This document shows positions 16,591 to 22,660 of a stretch of DNA of 64,000 nt, piece by piece. Below the pieces are notes generated by a model. That model ran no database searches. It worked only from the letters and a program-made list of their open reading frames with translations, and was not told the origin of the DNA. This DNA comes from Candidatus Poribacteria bacterium (GTDB lineage Bacteria; Poribacteria; WGA-4E; WGA-3G). Where the stretch lies: positions 1 through 64,000 of the forward strand of contig PYJD01000040.1 in NCBI GenBank assembly GCA_003635315.1. Reading direction: 5' to 3'. Every line of letters starts with the position of its first letter. Positions within the stretch are counted from its first letter, which is position 1. The translations under genes and the position numbers were made by a program.

Positions 16591-17166
16591 TTAAAAGTGC
16601 ATTTCAAGCAATGTAAGAGAAAAGAGTGGAGGTTGTTCGATCATCCAACTGTTCAATCCCATTGATAGTTGTTTCCTTGAGTATATCTCATCAAGTGATT
16701 GAATATCCCAATATATATTTGTCGAATAGGGTCCATACTGGGTTGCACCAGCAATGGTACCATCTTCAGGAATCTCATCTTGTTCTGGCGTTGGTGGTTT
16801 CAGCCCGGGGATACTCGGGGCAGATCTATCAACATTGCGAGTATGTAACCAATCCCATACCCCAATAAACAGTGTTAAAGAAACAGCACTTATTCCCATG
16901 ATTCTATAATTCTTAGGTGTTAGGACAGGGGCAATCTTATTCTGTTGTATCATCTGTATACCTCGAACTCCTAAATAACTATGAACAGCAGTGAAAGGGA
17001 GAGCACTTAAGGTAACAATTTCGAATCTCCGTAAAGCACTTTCATGATAGTCAGTTTCCGGTGTTCCTGGTGTTTGTTGTGAAGGATATTGTGCATGTGA
17101 TTGATTGGTAATCATGAATGGCACAAATAAGAGGAAAAAACTGTATAGTATTCTATATTTATTCAT
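16591..17166 (-). CDS. Exported or membrane protein of unknown function
   Basis: 191 residues from the Met at 17166, chosen because it opens a good signal sequence (MNKYRILYSFFLLFVPFM, cleavage near SHAQYP). Two further hydrophobic segments follow (FEIVTLSALPFTAVHSYLGV and IMGISAVSLTLFIGVWDWL), then a Pro-rich polar stretch and a Tyr/Asp-rich end. No family is recognised. It is placed between lspA and fmt, and its only lead is that position among envelope and translation genes. The two inner hydrophobic segments have the look of a DUF5683-like or outer-membrane associated protein, but that is not established. Confidence 0.7.
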   Translation of the reverse strand: MNKYRILYSFFLLFVPFMITNQSHAQYPSQQTPGTPETDYHESALRRFEIVTLSALPFTAVHSYLGVRGIQMIQQNKIAPVLTPKNYRIMGISAVSLTLFIGVWDWLHTRNVDRSAPSIPGLKPPTPEQDEIPEDGTIAGATQYGPYSTNIYWDIQSLDEIYSRKQLSMGLNSWMIEQPPLFSLTLLEMHF

Positions 17167-17242
17167 TGATTTAATATTTTCCAAATATATGTAGAACAGA
17201 TTAATCAAGGGAATTTATGCTTATTATAATATACTGTAATAC

Positions 17243-17743
17243 TCATTCTGTACTTTGAATACGAAAAAGATATACAATTAACATTCCCGCACCGATACAA
17301 ACAGAAATGTCTGCGACATTAAAAGTTGGCCAGTATAGTCTCTTACTTTCAATTCCAAATTGAAGAAAGTCTACAACTTCACCTAAGACAATACGATCTA
17401 AGAAATTCCCAAGAGCACCCCCTAATAGAAACCCAAGTGATATCCGCATCCATCCACTGTGTTTAAATCGAAAATAGTAGAAGAAGATAAAAATTAGGGC
17501 TAAAATAGTTACTAAAATAAGAAATGTACGTTGATCCGCCAAGATTCCAAATGCAGCCCCACTATTTCTATCATGTCTTAAATTGAAAAAACCGTGTATT
17601 ATCGGGTATCCCGTGCCTTCAGGAATATACATTTGAATCAGTACTTTTGTCACATAATCAAGTATAAAAATTGGTACTGCTACAAATACTAATGGTAATA
17701 TTGTCTTTAGGTTTCTTATATTTTTAAACACGTTATATAACAC
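17243..17743 (-). CDS. lspA: Lipoprotein signal peptidase (signal peptidase II)
   Basis: 166 residues, four transmembrane helices. The aspartic-peptidase residues are visible in GEVVDFLQF and FNVADISVCIG; the upstream motif NLRHDRNSGAAFGIL is also characteristic. It cleaves the signal peptide of prolipoproteins before the lipidated Cys, and at least four lipoproteins with lipoboxes are encoded in this window. It starts with GTG (17743) only 9 nt after the stop of the synthetase-like gene, an arrangement that mirrors the ileS-lspA operon of many bacteria. Confidence 0.94.
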   Translation of the reverse strand: MLYNVFKNIRNLKTILPLVFVAVPIFILDYVTKVLIQMYIPEGTGYPIIHGFFNLRHDRNSGAAFGILADQRTFLILVTILALIFIFFYYFRFKHSGWMRISLGFLLGGALGNFLDRIVLGEVVDFLQFGIESKRLYWPTFNVADISVCIGAGMLIVYLFRIQSTE

Positions 17744-17752
17744 ACCATAGTC

Positions 17753-20335
17753 TTATTTTTTAGATTGGTTTTTTGATATGAGAGTCTTCCACTCCTTAGC
17801 CATATCATCATTCCAATTAGTTTGTGGTAAGATAACCCATTTTTCTTCAAAAATACTTTTTGATGAGGTAAATACTGCAGCGTTTAAATCCTCTGCTAAG
17901 AAAGGTGTGATTGGAGCGAGTCGTTGAATCACAACTTTTAAAATTGCTGTTATGGTATTTTGGGCAGACTGGAAGTCACTCTTTGTAAGACCATTTTGAC
18001 ATAATTGTATATACTTATCAAATTCTTTTAGACATAAATCGGATAGTAAATCAAAGATAATATCATACTCTTTTGTTTGGTATGCTTTGTCTATACTACT
18101 AATTGAATCGTTAATTTTTGATAACGCCAATACATCAGTCTCTTTAAGGTCTTGTATATTGAAAGTATTGGGATTGAATGATTTTCTTCTTCTCCGTTTT
18201 GTGTTTTCACTATCTTCATTCTTCATACAAAAATCAAATGTGTTTATTAGTACTTTCTTCAATTGCATGTACTTTCTATTACACTTTTTAATTTGTGATT
18301 CAAAATACGTGGTAATTTCCTCGTCTGAGTCAGCATTCAGAAGATGAGTTCCTATTGAAAAAATCCTAATAACATCTGCATGATATTTCTCAATAAAACT
18401 ATCCAGAAACTCTGTATCACTTGATAACTCTGATAGTGGAATTAATCGTAGATTCTTATATGGTTGACTATCCTTTGTCGGTCTACTTTGTTGAAGCGAG
18501 GCAGCAATTATGCTCAATTGTCCTAACCACTCGATAAATTCAGCTTCAGGTACAAAGGCAATACTATTAGATGATTCATGTGCAGTTTTCTTAAAATCGG
18601 ATGTATCAAGTGCCTGCAACAAATTTGCAAAGTAGCTTTCGATGAATGTGGATTCTTTCCTAAAGTCTCTGGAATTACAACTCACACATACAGTTTCAGC
18701 TGGTATGAGTTCCTCAACACTCAAACGAAACCATTGTTCAGCACCTCGACGAATGGAACTCCTCACGGATCTTAGTATTTTCTTATCTGTTAATAACTCA
18801 TTACAGTTATCACATCTTAGGATAGGTAGTGGAATTCCCCACTGTCTTTCTGAAGATACAGCCAATTCATTAACATTTGTCACTTCACCATGAATTAGAT
18901 TACGTAGGTTTTCATCATATTGTTCCCAATATTCAAGTGAATTGGTTAATTCCTCCTTTATCTCACTTGACCCGAATGAAAATACCCAATGTCGATATGG
19001 TCGAGATACAGAGATCCCTTCACAGATTACACATTGATGCTGTTTTGTTTTCTGTTTACGTGTTTTTATAAGTAAACCCTTTGCTTCAAATTCATCGCTT
19101 ATAAATGGTGTAGCTTCAGATAAATATAGTCCACATAGTGTATCTGCATCTTCCGTGAACCTTCCATTTTCGTCAAATACTGGTGCAGTGGATGTAGAGT
19201 GTATAAGAGTTTTTAGGTCTGTCTCTTCGAAATCATCTAAAGAGTTTAAGATAGAATAACTCAGTGTATGATGTGACGGATTTATAGGTACGATCCCAGA
19301 GATTAATTCCTTACGATTATCATACTCAGCTATATTAGAGATTACTCCATCTGGAATAATAATAAAAGGCAGTTCATTTAATGAATACAGCGGATGGGTA
19401 ACAGTACATTCTTTTAGTTTAGCAACATCTATTTTAGCAATCGGCTTAGGACCTTCTTTCGGTTTTGTACTTCTACCGACGAATTTCTTTAAATGAGATT
19501 CAGCTAATATTAAATACTCATCCTGATAGAGGGTTAGCCAATATGTCACATTATTTCTAATCCCTAATGCTATAGTTCCGGCTACCTCCCATAGTTGATT
19601 CTCTGTAAATTGGATGGTAAAGTAGACATTCTTTCCAAAATCTTCAAAACCTATATTCAATGGAAACTTAACATAAGTATATAATTCTGACGTAGATACG
19701 GTATTGACAGTTATTTCAGATTCCAAGGGTAAAATACAGTTAGGACACCAATGACTTAATCGTAATTCATCTCGCAAAAAACTATGTTCCCGCAACCTGT
19801 CAAAATGACTAAACAGCTTAGCTTCAGACCTTGTATCGAATGATTTTTCAGCATTTACCCAATCTGCAAATATTCCAAGATTAATAAAGTTCTCTTGTTG
19901 AGATTTTAGATTTTGTGTATAAACTTGACGACACTGCTTTCTAAAATTGGACATATTTGCAGTGGAATTATTTTCCCTTATAACAATAGATTCTATATTA
20001 AATGGGAATGTCTCCCATAATGGGGTATAATTGACAGTGTTCCCGTGCATCAATTCATACTTAAGGTATGCATCTTGATATAATTTCCTACGTAATGTAT
20101 CAAAACTCAGGTGTGAAACAGGTGTAGGCATCTCTCGAATCACACAAGTTGGTGGGTTAGCGTTTTTCTCTATACCAGAATAGACATTTTGTGCTGTCCA
20201 AAATTTGACAATATCTGATTCAAGTCTATATTCAATTGGTGAATCTTGTGTATTTGTGGATGCTTGTTTTGTAGGTGGTTGACTCTTAGAAGGATTTGAT
20301 TTAGAGTTCTGTGTAGGTGTGTTCGCCTTTTTCAT
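17753..20335 (-). CDS. Isoleucyl-tRNA synthetase-like protein lacking catalytic motifs
   Basis: 860 residues, intact. A low-complexity Ser/Thr/Asn/Gln/Pro/Lys tail (1-32) precedes a class Ia synthetase layout. Residues ~70-115 align with the IleRS active-site start: KLYQDAYLKYELMHGNTV matches 'KD..RYK.M.G..V', and TPLWETFPFNIE matches 'PGWD.HGLPIE'. The HIGH signature falls on SFDT (77-80) without gaps. An editing-like region follows (GIVPINPSHHTLSYS; FDENGRFTEDADTLCG), but its catalytic Asp is not visible. RQWGIPLPILRCDNC (about 497-511) matches the RQRYWG.PIP segment. KMSKS is replaced by PLSELSSD before IEKYHADVIRIF. A helical anticodon-binding-like region closes (IQRLAPITPFLAEDL). Hence it is a probable non-catalytic paralog in the ileS slot beside lspA. 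A true ileS is expected elsewhere. Confidence 0.82.
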   Translation of the reverse strand: MKKANTPTQNSKSNPSKSQPPTKQASTNTQDSPIEYRLESDIVKFWTAQNVYSGIEKNANPPTCVIREMPTPVSHLSFDTLRRKLYQDAYLKYELMHGNTVNYTPLWETFPFNIESIVIRENNSTANMSNFRKQCRQVYTQNLKSQQENFINLGIFADWVNAEKSFDTRSEAKLFSHFDRLREHSFLRDELRLSHWCPNCILPLESEITVNTVSTSELYTYVKFPLNIGFEDFGKNVYFTIQFTENQLWEVAGTIALGIRNNVTYWLTLYQDEYLILAESHLKKFVGRSTKPKEGPKPIAKIDVAKLKECTVTHPLYSLNELPFIIIPDGVISNIAEYDNRKELISGIVPINPSHHTLSYSILNSLDDFEETDLKTLIHSTSTAPVFDENGRFTEDADTLCGLYLSEATPFISDEFEAKGLLIKTRKQKTKQHQCVICEGISVSRPYRHWVFSFGSSEIKEELTNSLEYWEQYDENLRNLIHGEVTNVNELAVSSERQWGIPLPILRCDNCNELLTDKKILRSVRSSIRRGAEQWFRLSVEELIPAETVCVSCNSRDFRKESTFIESYFANLLQALDTSDFKKTAHESSNSIAFVPEAEFIEWLGQLSIIAASLQQSRPTKDSQPYKNLRLIPLSELSSDTEFLDSFIEKYHADVIRIFSIGTHLLNADSDEEITTYFESQIKKCNRKYMQLKKVLINTFDFCMKNEDSENTKRRRRKSFNPNTFNIQDLKETDVLALSKINDSISSIDKAYQTKEYDIIFDLLSDLCLKEFDKYIQLCQNGLTKSDFQSAQNTITAILKVVIQRLAPITPFLAEDLNAAVFTSSKSIFEEKWVILPQTNWNDDMAKEWKTLISKNQSKK

Positions 20336-20410: not shown

Positions 20411-20671
20411 TTATAGCCAAGATTCGAGTATACCTAAGAGTACAATTAAAACAATTGGAGAAAAATCAATTCCAATGTTTCGAGTCATTGGATTCAGAAT
20501 GGATCGTATCGGTTGTAATAAGGGGTCAACGAATTGTCCGGTAACCAGATAAATCCTACGAATAACTAAATTCTGTGTACCGAATACAACCCAAGATAGA
20601 ATCACATTCAAGATTATCACAAGCATGTAAATGTTCAAGAGATTTTTGAGTAATCCTGCCAAAATATCCAC
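20411..20671 (-). CDS. YggT family membrane protein (YlmG)
   Basis: 86 residues, one YggT repeat with two hydrophobic helices (LLNIYMLVIILNVILSWVVF and SPIVLIVLLGILESWL) and the family motif PLLQPIRSILNPM between them. YggT/YlmG proteins are linked to cell division or osmotic homeostasis and usually sit next to proC and yggS. Here it follows proC by 14 nt and precedes the synthetase-like gene. Confidence 0.88.
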   Translation of the reverse strand: MDILAGLLKNLLNIYMLVIILNVILSWVVFGTQNLVIRRIYLVTGQFVDPLLQPIRSILNPMTRNIGIDFSPIVLIVLLGILESWL

Positions 20672-20685
20672 TGTATTGTCCCTTC

Positions 20686-21501
20686 CTAATTACTCGTATC
20701 AAGTTCTTTAGCCCGTTCTGTTGCTGATAGAATTGCTTCAGCAATTGTCGCCCTTAATCCACCTTTTTCAAGTGCATGAAGTCCCGCGGCAGTTGTTCCA
20801 CCCGGAGTCGTTACACGGTTTTTTAATATTGCTGGATGTTCATTAGATTCCGTCATAATAGTCGCTGCACCTAATACAGTGTGGATTGCAAGCGTCTGAG
20901 CATCTTTACGAAGAAGACCCACCTGTACTGCTGCATCAGCTAATGCCTCAATAAAAAGTGCGACATAAGCAGGTCCACTACCACTAACTCCTGTTACTGC
21001 ATTAATATGACGTTCCTCCATAATTAAGGTAATACCACAAGTATCGAACACCTTTTGTGCTTGCGTTAGATGTTCCTCGTTCGCAGCAACACCAGCAGAT
21101 AACACAGAAACCGCTGCACCAACTGAAGCGGCAATATTTGGCATTACCCGAACTATAGGCGGAGGAGAATCAAAATACGATTCCAAAGTCGATGTTGAAA
21201 CGCCTGCTGCTATACTAATCAACCACTGTTTGTCTGAAATACTCTCGGAAATCTGAGGAAGGATATGGGGTATAGCAACAGGTGGTACAGCACATAAAAT
21301 ATAATCTGTCGTAGCTAACAATTCTGATATGTCGGATACCGCTATCACCCCGGTTTCATTACACAATTCAGATACCAGATTTTGGTCAAGATCAACAATT
21401 GAGATCTGGTGTGGAGAAAGAAGATCATTGACAATACTTCTAACTATAATGCCTCCCATTTTCCCTATACCAATTACACCTAATTTAAGGTTTTCTTCCA
21501 C
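20686..21501 (-). CDS. proC: Pyrroline-5-carboxylate reductase
   Basis: 271 residues, full length. The N-terminal Rossmann fold reads LGVIGIGKMGGII, and the C-terminal dimerisation/substrate region carries the signature VTGVSGSGPAYVALFIEAL and TPGGTTAAGLHALEKG. It reduces Δ1-pyrroline-5-carboxylate to proline with NAD(P)H. It stands between yggS and yggT, a common arrangement. Confidence 0.94.
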   Translation of the reverse strand: MEENLKLGVIGIGKMGGIIVRSIVNDLLSPHQISIVDLDQNLVSELCNETGVIAVSDISELLATTDYILCAVPPVAIPHILPQISESISDKQWLISIAAGVSTSTLESYFDSPPPIVRVMPNIAASVGAAVSVLSAGVAANEEHLTQAQKVFDTCGITLIMEERHINAVTGVSGSGPAYVALFIEALADAAVQVGLLRKDAQTLAIHTVLGAATIMTESNEHPAILKNRVTTPGGTTAAGLHALEKGGLRATIAEAILSATERAKELDTSN

Positions 21502-21599: not shown

Positions 21600-22328
21600 T
21601 TAATTTGCCGTACCAAAAATTGCTGTTCCAATTCTTACTAAGTTTGCTCCCTCTTCAATTGCAATTTCAAAATCATTCGTCATTCCCATTGATAGGTATT
21701 GCATGTTAACACCAGAAAATTGTTGCTGTTCTATAGTTTCAGATAATTTCATGAGTAATTCAAAAGCTGAACGATTATCCTCAGGTGAAGCACTTAAAAT
21801 TCCAATTGTCATTAATCCACATATCTCAACATTTGGATAGGTATGAACATTCTCTACAAAACCGAATAATTCATCTACCGCTATGCCAAACTTACTGACC
21901 TCCCCAGTTGTATTGACTTGTAACAATACTCTTGTCGGTTTTTCTTTATCTATTGACCGATTAGAAATCTCTTTATATAACCGAATGCTATCTACTGAAT
22001 GAATAAGTGAGAACATCTCTAATGCTGACTTTACCTTATTTCTCTGGAGATGTCCTATTAGATGCCACTCGCAATTGTAGTTTATTTTTTTCTCTTGTGT
22101 TGCGTTCTCTTTGCATTGATTGATGATGTTATACTTTTCTTGCGCTTCTTGAATCCGGTTTTCTCCAATATCAGTAACTCCTTCAGCAATAATTCTCTGA
22201 ATCTGTGAAACGTTAACCCCCTTCGTTACAGCAATAAGTCTTATCGATTCCGGTTGTCTACCACTCCGTTGGGCAGCATCTGCAATACGTTGTTTCACTC
22301 TATCAAGATTCTGTGTAATTTGATTCAA
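21600..22328 (-). CDS. yggS: YggS family pyridoxal phosphate homeostasis protein
   Basis: 242 residues, a single PLP-binding TIM barrel without the second domain of alanine racemase. The PLP lysine is Lys36 (RLIAVTKGV), and GENRIQEAQEKY and WHLIGHLQRNK are family signatures; LSMGMTNDFEIAIEEGAN closes the phosphate site. Members bind PLP and buffer its level; no enzymatic reaction is firmly known. The ATG overlaps the stop of the upstream membrane protein by 4 nt (ATGA). Confidence 0.93.
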   Translation of the reverse strand: MNQITQNLDRVKQRIADAAQRSGRQPESIRLIAVTKGVNVSQIQRIIAEGVTDIGENRIQEAQEKYNIINQCKENATQEKKINYNCEWHLIGHLQRNKVKSALEMFSLIHSVDSIRLYKEISNRSIDKEKPTRVLLQVNTTGEVSKFGIAVDELFGFVENVHTYPNVEICGLMTIGILSASPEDNRSAFELLMKLSETIEQQQFSGVNMQYLSMGMTNDFEIAIEEGANLVRIGTAIFGTAN

Positions 22329-22660
22329 GATTCATCCTTCTCGTCTTGTGATTCATCTATTTCTGATGAAACTGATGTATTCTTTGTAATCTTATCTATT
22401 AGGAAAGCAATTTCCTTTCTTACCTTATCAGATGAAATCAAAAATCCAGTTATGGCTGTGAAGATACCAAATGAAGTAAAACCGATCCCCAGAACAACTC
22501 GATAAGTAGCCTCGGTATATACTTGGGTGACCCTAACTGCGGTTGTATTCTCTTTGGATAATTCCTTATTGTATAACGTTGGATGTATCCATCCTCGAAA
22601 AATAAAAAAGAGACCGATCAGGCTGGATAAAATAGATAGTGTGAGAAAAAATGAACGCAT
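22325..22660 (-). CDS. Small membrane protein of unknown function upstream of yggS
   Basis: 111 residues with two hydrophobic segments (~2-24 and 56-78: VVLGIGFTSFGIFTAITGFLI) and an acidic, Ser-rich C-terminal tail (SSEIDESQDEKDES). It starts at ATG 22660 and overlaps yggS by 4 nt, so the two are translationally coupled. No family is recognised. Its place between pgeF and yggS would be that of a division-cluster gene in Firmicutes, but it shows no SepF features. Confidence 0.7.
   Translation of the reverse strand: MRSFFLTLSILSSLIGLFFIFRGWIHPTLYNKELSKENTTAVRVTQVYTEATYRVVLGIGFTSFGIFTAITGFLISSDKVRKEIAFLIDKITKNTSVSSEIDESQDEKDES

Follow-up and report, generated by a model that had tools for sequence, protein, structure and literature searches.

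The window analysed here, a stretch of 64,000 nt from a Candidatus Poribacteria genome, carries beside lspA a gene for a protein of the isoleucyl-tRNA synthetase (IleRS) family that has lost both its synthetic and its editing sites. This pseudo-IleRS is of IleRS1 descent, retains its zinc sites and evolves under purifying selection, and most genomes of the phylum encode a separate IleRS2; all of these points are shown by sequence comparison.

An intact IleRS-like frame beside lspA

The frame opens with ATG and runs through 860 codons without interruption (Table 1). A gap of 9 nt separates it from lspA on its downstream side, and yggS, proC and yggT lie on its upstream side. The genome to which the window belongs is a 4.33 Mb assembly in 50 contigs, 90% complete. 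Pfam families tRNA-synt_1 (E 9e-21) and Anticodon_1 (7e-14) match the protein, whose best PDB matches are IleRS1 structures. IleRS is also its closest curated family, though the 174 bits scored against TIGR00392 (ileS) remain far under the curated equivalog cut-off of 621.4. The closest named homologue, from a Candidatus Poribacteria MAG, shows 77% identity over the window protein. The C-terminal domain of IleRS1 is missing, and the N-terminal tail is variable in sequence within family f1 and mostly absent from f3 and f4 members. An Rfam scan of the window returned neither a T-box nor any other RNA element.

Table 1. Coordinates of the pseudo-IleRS gene, its parts and its neighbours in the window
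Feature	Coordinates	Strand	Remarks
IleRS1-derived pseudo-synthetase	17753..20335	-	860 aa, intact frame; ORF, family and PDB matches, homologues, tree
lspA	17243..17743	-	immediate downstream neighbour across the phylum; LspA by Pfam
hyp205	16591..17208	-	conserved, next after lspA; no Pfam family; 205 aa, hydrophobic segment near N-terminus; almost phylum-wide
yggT	20411..20671	-	conserved upstream neighbour; YggT by Pfam
proC	20686..21501	-	conserved upstream neighbour; name taken from the earlier note
yggS	21600..22328	-	conserved upstream neighbour; name taken from the earlier note
111-aa protein	22325..22660	-	beside yggS; conserved in family f1; no Pfam family
N-terminal low-complexity tail	20228..20335	-	residues 1-36, S/K/T/P/N/Q-rich, net +3
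HIGH-equivalent	20096..20107	-	residues 77-80, reads SFDT
PGWDxHGLPIE-equivalent	19991..20023	-	residues 105-115, reads PLWETFPFNIE
Zinc site 1, first pair C197/C200	19736..19747	-	conserved CxxC
TTTPWT editing-motif equivalent, lost	19580..19609	-	residues 243-252
Second editing segment (GTGAVHTAPGHG equivalent), lost	19268..19303	-	residues 345-356
Zinc site 1, second pair C435/C438	19022..19033	-	conserved CxxC
Zinc module 2	18620..18865	-	residues 491-572: C508/C511, C550/C553, RRGxxxWF, FANL
KMSKS-equivalent region, loop deleted	18416..18439	-	PLSELSSD, residues 633-640
Anticodon-binding-domain remnant	17768..18127	-	residues 737-856, Pfam Anticodon_1

Synthetic and editing sites are lost across the family

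The motifs of the window protein were read from its alignment with E. coli IleRS, in which GWDCHGLPIE corresponds to LWETFPFNIE, WFDSG reads YFANL, GTGAVHTAPGHG aligns to ISGIVPINPSHH and the KMSKS loop is removed by a deletion of about 7 alignment columns. The column of the editing residue Asp342 holds Ser (Asp is found there in 43% of the pseudo family), and the Thr241-243 columns of CP1 editing are lost across the whole family. The His68 column is never His in the pseudo family, and the HIGH signature (HxG[H/T/Q] in IleRS1, GxHH in many IleRS2), present in 35/35 functional IleRS1, occurs in 0/75 homologues. HIGH, KMSKS and TTTPWT are missing from all 75 near-complete homologues and an active-site signature survives in none, so that neither chance nor sequencing error can account for the losses.

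The same holds at the level of single columns. Seventeen functional IleRS share 76 invariant columns (E. coli numbering), from which the pseudo family has lost 54 and kept 22. Those lost include G56, N61, H68, D96, W534, D536, Q565 and R567 of the synthetic site, T241-T243 and H333 of the editing site and K605 and N609 of the KMSKS region; W421, S465, R468, W569, D623 and R626 are among those kept. With the nucleotide-site signatures and the KMSKS loop lost and no family-wide replacement in their place, catalysis is very unlikely, and the lost ATP-site columns argue against adenylate formation. Both statements are inferred from sequence alone, without biochemical data.

The earlier note on this stretch had described an IleRS-like protein without HIGH, KMSKS or editing motifs in the ileS position by lspA, with an intact 860-residue frame 9 nt from lspA and yggS-proC-yggT upstream, and all of this held. 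Its readings of HIGH as SFDT and of PGWD.HGLPIE as PLWETFPFNIE held in the alignment with E. coli IleRS, and the reported loss of TTTPWT and of the editing Asp held for the window protein. Its statement that PLSELSSD replaces KMSKS held in part: the loss is real, and the loop is better called deleted. The Ser/Thr/Asn/Gln-rich N-terminal tail was confirmed (36 residues) but is confined to part of the family.

Distribution in Poribacteria and linkage to lspA

Homologues are present in 78 of the 85 Poribacteria genomes surveyed, mostly MAGs; 75 have a substantially complete frame, and in three (G002, G003 and G005) the gene is partial, cut short by the end of a contig. The 75 frames span 746-1011 codons from stop to stop, the G038 frame being cut by a contig end. 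Three genomes (G013, G014 and G016) keep the yggT and lspA flanks with no gene between them; this is a clean loss and the gene is therefore dispensable. In G032 the contig edge falls at lspA and no pseudo-IleRS is seen, and in G001, G009 and G010 neither an LspA (by protein or Pfam search) nor a pseudo-IleRS was found. Wherever the flanking stretch reaches far enough lspA adjoins the pseudo-IleRS gene, with the exception of L018, for which no LspA match was found within its short flank. In seven genomes (G018 and G021-G026) the match to the family profile continues slightly beyond the frame at one end, past a stop codon, so the proteins of f3 and f4 differ in the length of their ends.

Outside the phylum, the family profile found no comparable match in 302 non-Poribacteria genomes: the best reached 570 bits, and 755 bits is the score of the weakest near-complete family member listed. 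The 30 outside matches inspected are functional IleRS1; weaker matches were not covered, and rare members outside Poribacteria remain possible given this sampling (302 genomes by profile, 30 matches inspected). One long-branch IleRS1-like protein from a Variovorax plasmid (NZ_LR594660.1, 392-2935) was considered as a second pseudo-synthetase and rejected, its motifs being intact. It is fast-evolving, keeps HLGH intact with KYSKS and adjoins a helix-turn-helix regulator, and may be a specialised IleRS paralogue.

A separate IleRS2 in most Poribacteria

The earlier note had called for a search for a canonical ileS elsewhere in the genome, and contig C43 carries a separate motif-complete IleRS of 1047 aa with KMSKS, TTTPWT and WFDSG present and HIGH in the form GVHH. 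The swapped G/AxHH signature marks an active IleRS2 variant linked to mupirocin hyper-resistance (PMC10485003). An IleRS above the ileS cut-off was found in 75/85 Poribacteria genomes, the window genome included, and a partial IleRS2 gene is present in each of three more (G010, G012 and G015). No motif-complete IleRS was found in the remaining seven assemblies (G001, G006, G017, G019, G027, G030 and G060; completeness 64-95%); assembly gaps could explain this, and displacement is not demonstrated in these genomes. For one of them, G019, the five other g9 genomes (G018 and G020-G023) do carry an IleRS.

The Poribacteria IleRS proteins examined are all IleRS2, forming two clades, with no functional IleRS1 among them. 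Members of the second clade (L134-L142, from G013, G014, G016, G018, G020-G023 and G012) read NNPMGVHHAWG, have A/EMHKS for KMSKS in most cases and are about 1120-1190 aa long. This clade supplies the IleRS of families f2, f3 and f8, so that not all Poribacteria have the same type of IleRS2; f3 and f8 have kept the pseudo-IleRS. A single genome, G042, has two full-length IleRS2 genes (C74 and C84) besides its pseudo-IleRS.

Descent from IleRS1 and purifying selection

In a tree of 43 proteins that included 5 IleRS1 sequences, the pseudo-IleRS form one clade (support 100/100) that is sister to IleRS1 (joint branch 100/99), and IleRS2 and ValRS stand apart from both. An enlarged tree with 35 IleRS1 sequences, 30 of them from outside the phylum, gave the same grouping (SH-aLRT 100 for the pseudo clade and 86 for the IleRS1 clade). 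Sequence comparison thus places the descent of the pseudo-IleRS on the IleRS1 side of the tree. Nesting inside IleRS1 remains possible, since the branches are long. The ileS of E. coli also adjoins lspA, and given this shared linkage the simplest history is that the gene is the original ileS1, inherited vertically. The placement in an ileS slot by the earlier note is strengthened by the phylum-wide lspA linkage and the grouping with IleRS1.

Pairwise dN/dS for the pseudo-IleRS lies between 0.105 and 0.392 (Nei-Gojobori, 18 pairs, dS 0.10-0.96), similar to the values of neighbouring genes in the same pairs (mostly 0.05-0.36). The method is a simple one, without a site model. The values show purifying selection on the sequence and argue strongly against neutral decay. 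The earlier note had proposed selection for a non-synthetase role, which these 18 pairs (0.11-0.39) support; the specific roles it named (tRNA binding, regulation, scaffold) are inferred only. It would have been refuted by the absence of any other ileS together with structural evidence of an intact ATP site, or by frameshifts and decay in related strains. Both refutations failed, no frameshift or internal stop being found among the homologues in 78/85 genomes.

Constraint has moved to the second zinc module

Profile alignment and Pfam place the Rossmann, CP1, zinc and anticodon-binding regions in the order of a class Ia IleRS, and homology extends over the whole length: the family profile matches P. 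megaterium IleRS1 at 429 bits over positions 32-812 of 817. Both tRNA-synt_1 and Anticodon_1 were detected in 22/22 members scanned. Four CxxC pairs are all conserved, C197/C200 with C435/C438 and C508/C511 with C550/C553. Many functional IleRS1, and every Poribacteria IleRS2 examined, have the same eight cysteines, which are thus inherited; they correspond to the two T. thermophilus IleRS zinc sites, with the assignment of pairs to sites inferred.

Conservation in the pseudo family peaks in the second zinc module, with 74% identity within f1 and 46% to f3, above the catalytic halves (54-61% within f1). In functional IleRS1 the order is the opposite, the catalytic halves (57-60%) exceeding this module (48%). 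Of 72 near-invariant sites in the pseudo family, 17 fall within the module, against an expectation of 7.2 (p = 3e-4). Comparison of the sequences thus shows a shift of constraint away from the catalytic core and towards the second zinc module (residues 491-572), whose high conservation may be due to folding and not to binding. Within the family, conservation is lowest in the stem region 666-735 (23% identity within f1). An AlphaFold2 model of the window protein built with only 2 sequences reached a pLDDT of 28.5; the folding of the pseudo-IleRS and the position of its zinc module are inferred from the alignment.

Discussion

The reading we favour, if only by a modest margin, is that the pseudo-IleRS is a vertically inherited, catalytically dead descendant of IleRS1, kept as a non-catalytic binding protein after an IleRS2 took over. 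Early in Poribacteria, a mupirocin-resistant-type IleRS2 would have taken over tRNA-Ile charging and so freed the IleRS1 gene beside lspA, whose product would have been kept, by analogy with HisZ or SLIMP, as an adaptor or regulatory subunit. Most likely it would act via the second zinc module, carried on what is left of the synthetase scaffold, and its target would be either a protein of the translation machinery or a tRNA or tRNA-like RNA, touched at the acceptor end; the partner is not identified. That replacement by IleRS2 was the cause, that the protein serves in binding and that the zinc module forms the interface are inferences, for which there are no biochemical or structural data.

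A bolder version, which we hold as the weaker bet, is that a full-length pseudoenzyme has been kept phylum-wide since before the Poribacteria radiation, with the second zinc module as the working surface of a new adaptor or regulator that acts on translation or (given the lspA linkage) on envelope lipoprotein processing, recruited only after displacement by IleRS2.

Among the alternatives, a tRNA-Ile-specific binding regulator that holds tRNA-Ile uncharged, as a reporter or buffer of isoleucine or tRNA status, survives best, though we consider it unlikely. In its favour are the anticodon-binding domain in all 22 members scanned and the basic N-terminal tails in f1. Against it, the IleRS1 C-terminal domain is absent and the stem 666-735 is only 23% identical within f1, which together make tRNA-Ile recognition in the style of IleRS1 doubtful; moreover, the KMSKS loop is deleted, no T-box or other Rfam element lies in the window and the anticodon domain shows no general rise in net positive charge, so that the net-charge analysis gives no sign of gained RNA binding.

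That the old Rossmann fold houses a rebuilt active site, making the protein a new ligase or transferase, is very unlikely. Family-specific residues do replace the old motifs (WExYP, LNPAHH, FANL), but the replacements differ between families (WET, WNY, WNL, WDY), nothing common to the whole family has taken the place of the lost ATP-site columns G56, N61, H68 and K605, and a deletion has removed the KMSKS loop. Similarly improbable is passive retention, in which the frame is kept solely via translational coupling to downstream lspA. The 9-nt spacing and the invariant lspA linkage speak for it, but three genomes without the pseudo-IleRS gene keep lspA, and coupling would explain neither a dN/dS of 0.11-0.39 nor cysteines that stay invariant along the full length.

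The possibility that the protein is a working IleRS with an unrecognised active site rests on the 7 assemblies in which no other IleRS was found and is all but excluded: 75/85 genomes have an IleRS above cut-off and G010, G012 and G015 a partial IleRS2, the other five g9 genomes have an IleRS despite none in the G019 assembly, and three genomes with IleRS2 lack the pseudo-IleRS gene. A slowly decaying pseudogene, suggested by the loss of 54/76 invariant columns and by the variable protein ends of some families, can likewise be practically ruled out by 75 homologues without a frameshift or internal stop, by dN/dS near the values of neighbouring genes and by strong clade-wide conserved sites.

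Among known systems, the pseudo-IleRS is closest to bacterial IleRS1 (E. coli IleS, P. megaterium IleRS1 8c9e, S. aureus 1ffy), which it resembles over nearly its whole length, with recognisable CP1 and zinc sites, an lspA neighbourhood as in E. coli and the nearest position in the trees. Unlike them, it has no HIGH, KMSKS, WFDSG, editing residues or C-terminal domain and scores far under the ileS cut-off. Nor is it an IleRS2 with G/AxHH (PMC10485003), the motif-complete class Ia enzyme of the same Poribacteria genomes, which forms a separate clade, has complete functional motifs and measures about 1050-1190 aa.

Other comparisons come from a review of synthetase paralogues (PMC9437257), many of which keep their active site and whose IleRS entries are IleRS2 and SbzA only. 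LeuRS-I of Sulfolobaceae is likewise an extra class Ia paralogue without aminoacylation, but it still makes leucyl-adenylate and binds tRNA-Leu, whereas the pseudo-IleRS has lost its ATP-site signatures. HisZ is a synthetase paralogue too and works as a regulatory subunit without adenylation activity; it differs in being class II and HisRS-derived, with a known partner, HisG, and no partner has been identified for the pseudo-IleRS. The insect SerRS paralogue SLIMP has a role outside aminoacylation and acts by protein association, but is class II, mitochondrial and eukaryotic. SbzA, like the pseudo-IleRS, is an IleRS-family paralogue, and it works outside translation; it differs as an active transferase of antibiotic biosynthesis, and no sequence comparison with the pseudo-IleRS was made. 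Our search of the open-licence literature returned no match for a Poribacteria isoleucyl-tRNA synthetase and no description of the pseudo-IleRS family.

What sets this case apart is that an entire class Ia synthetase has lost its synthetic and editing sites and yet stays in its ancestral neighbourhood, under purifying selection and phylum-wide. The pseudo-IleRS points to a function not yet tested in this candidate phylum. Living Poribacteria genomes display together the displacing enzyme, the lost catalysis, the shifted constraint and a few clean losses of the gene, and so offer a natural experiment in how an essential enzyme gets replaced and its gene reused.
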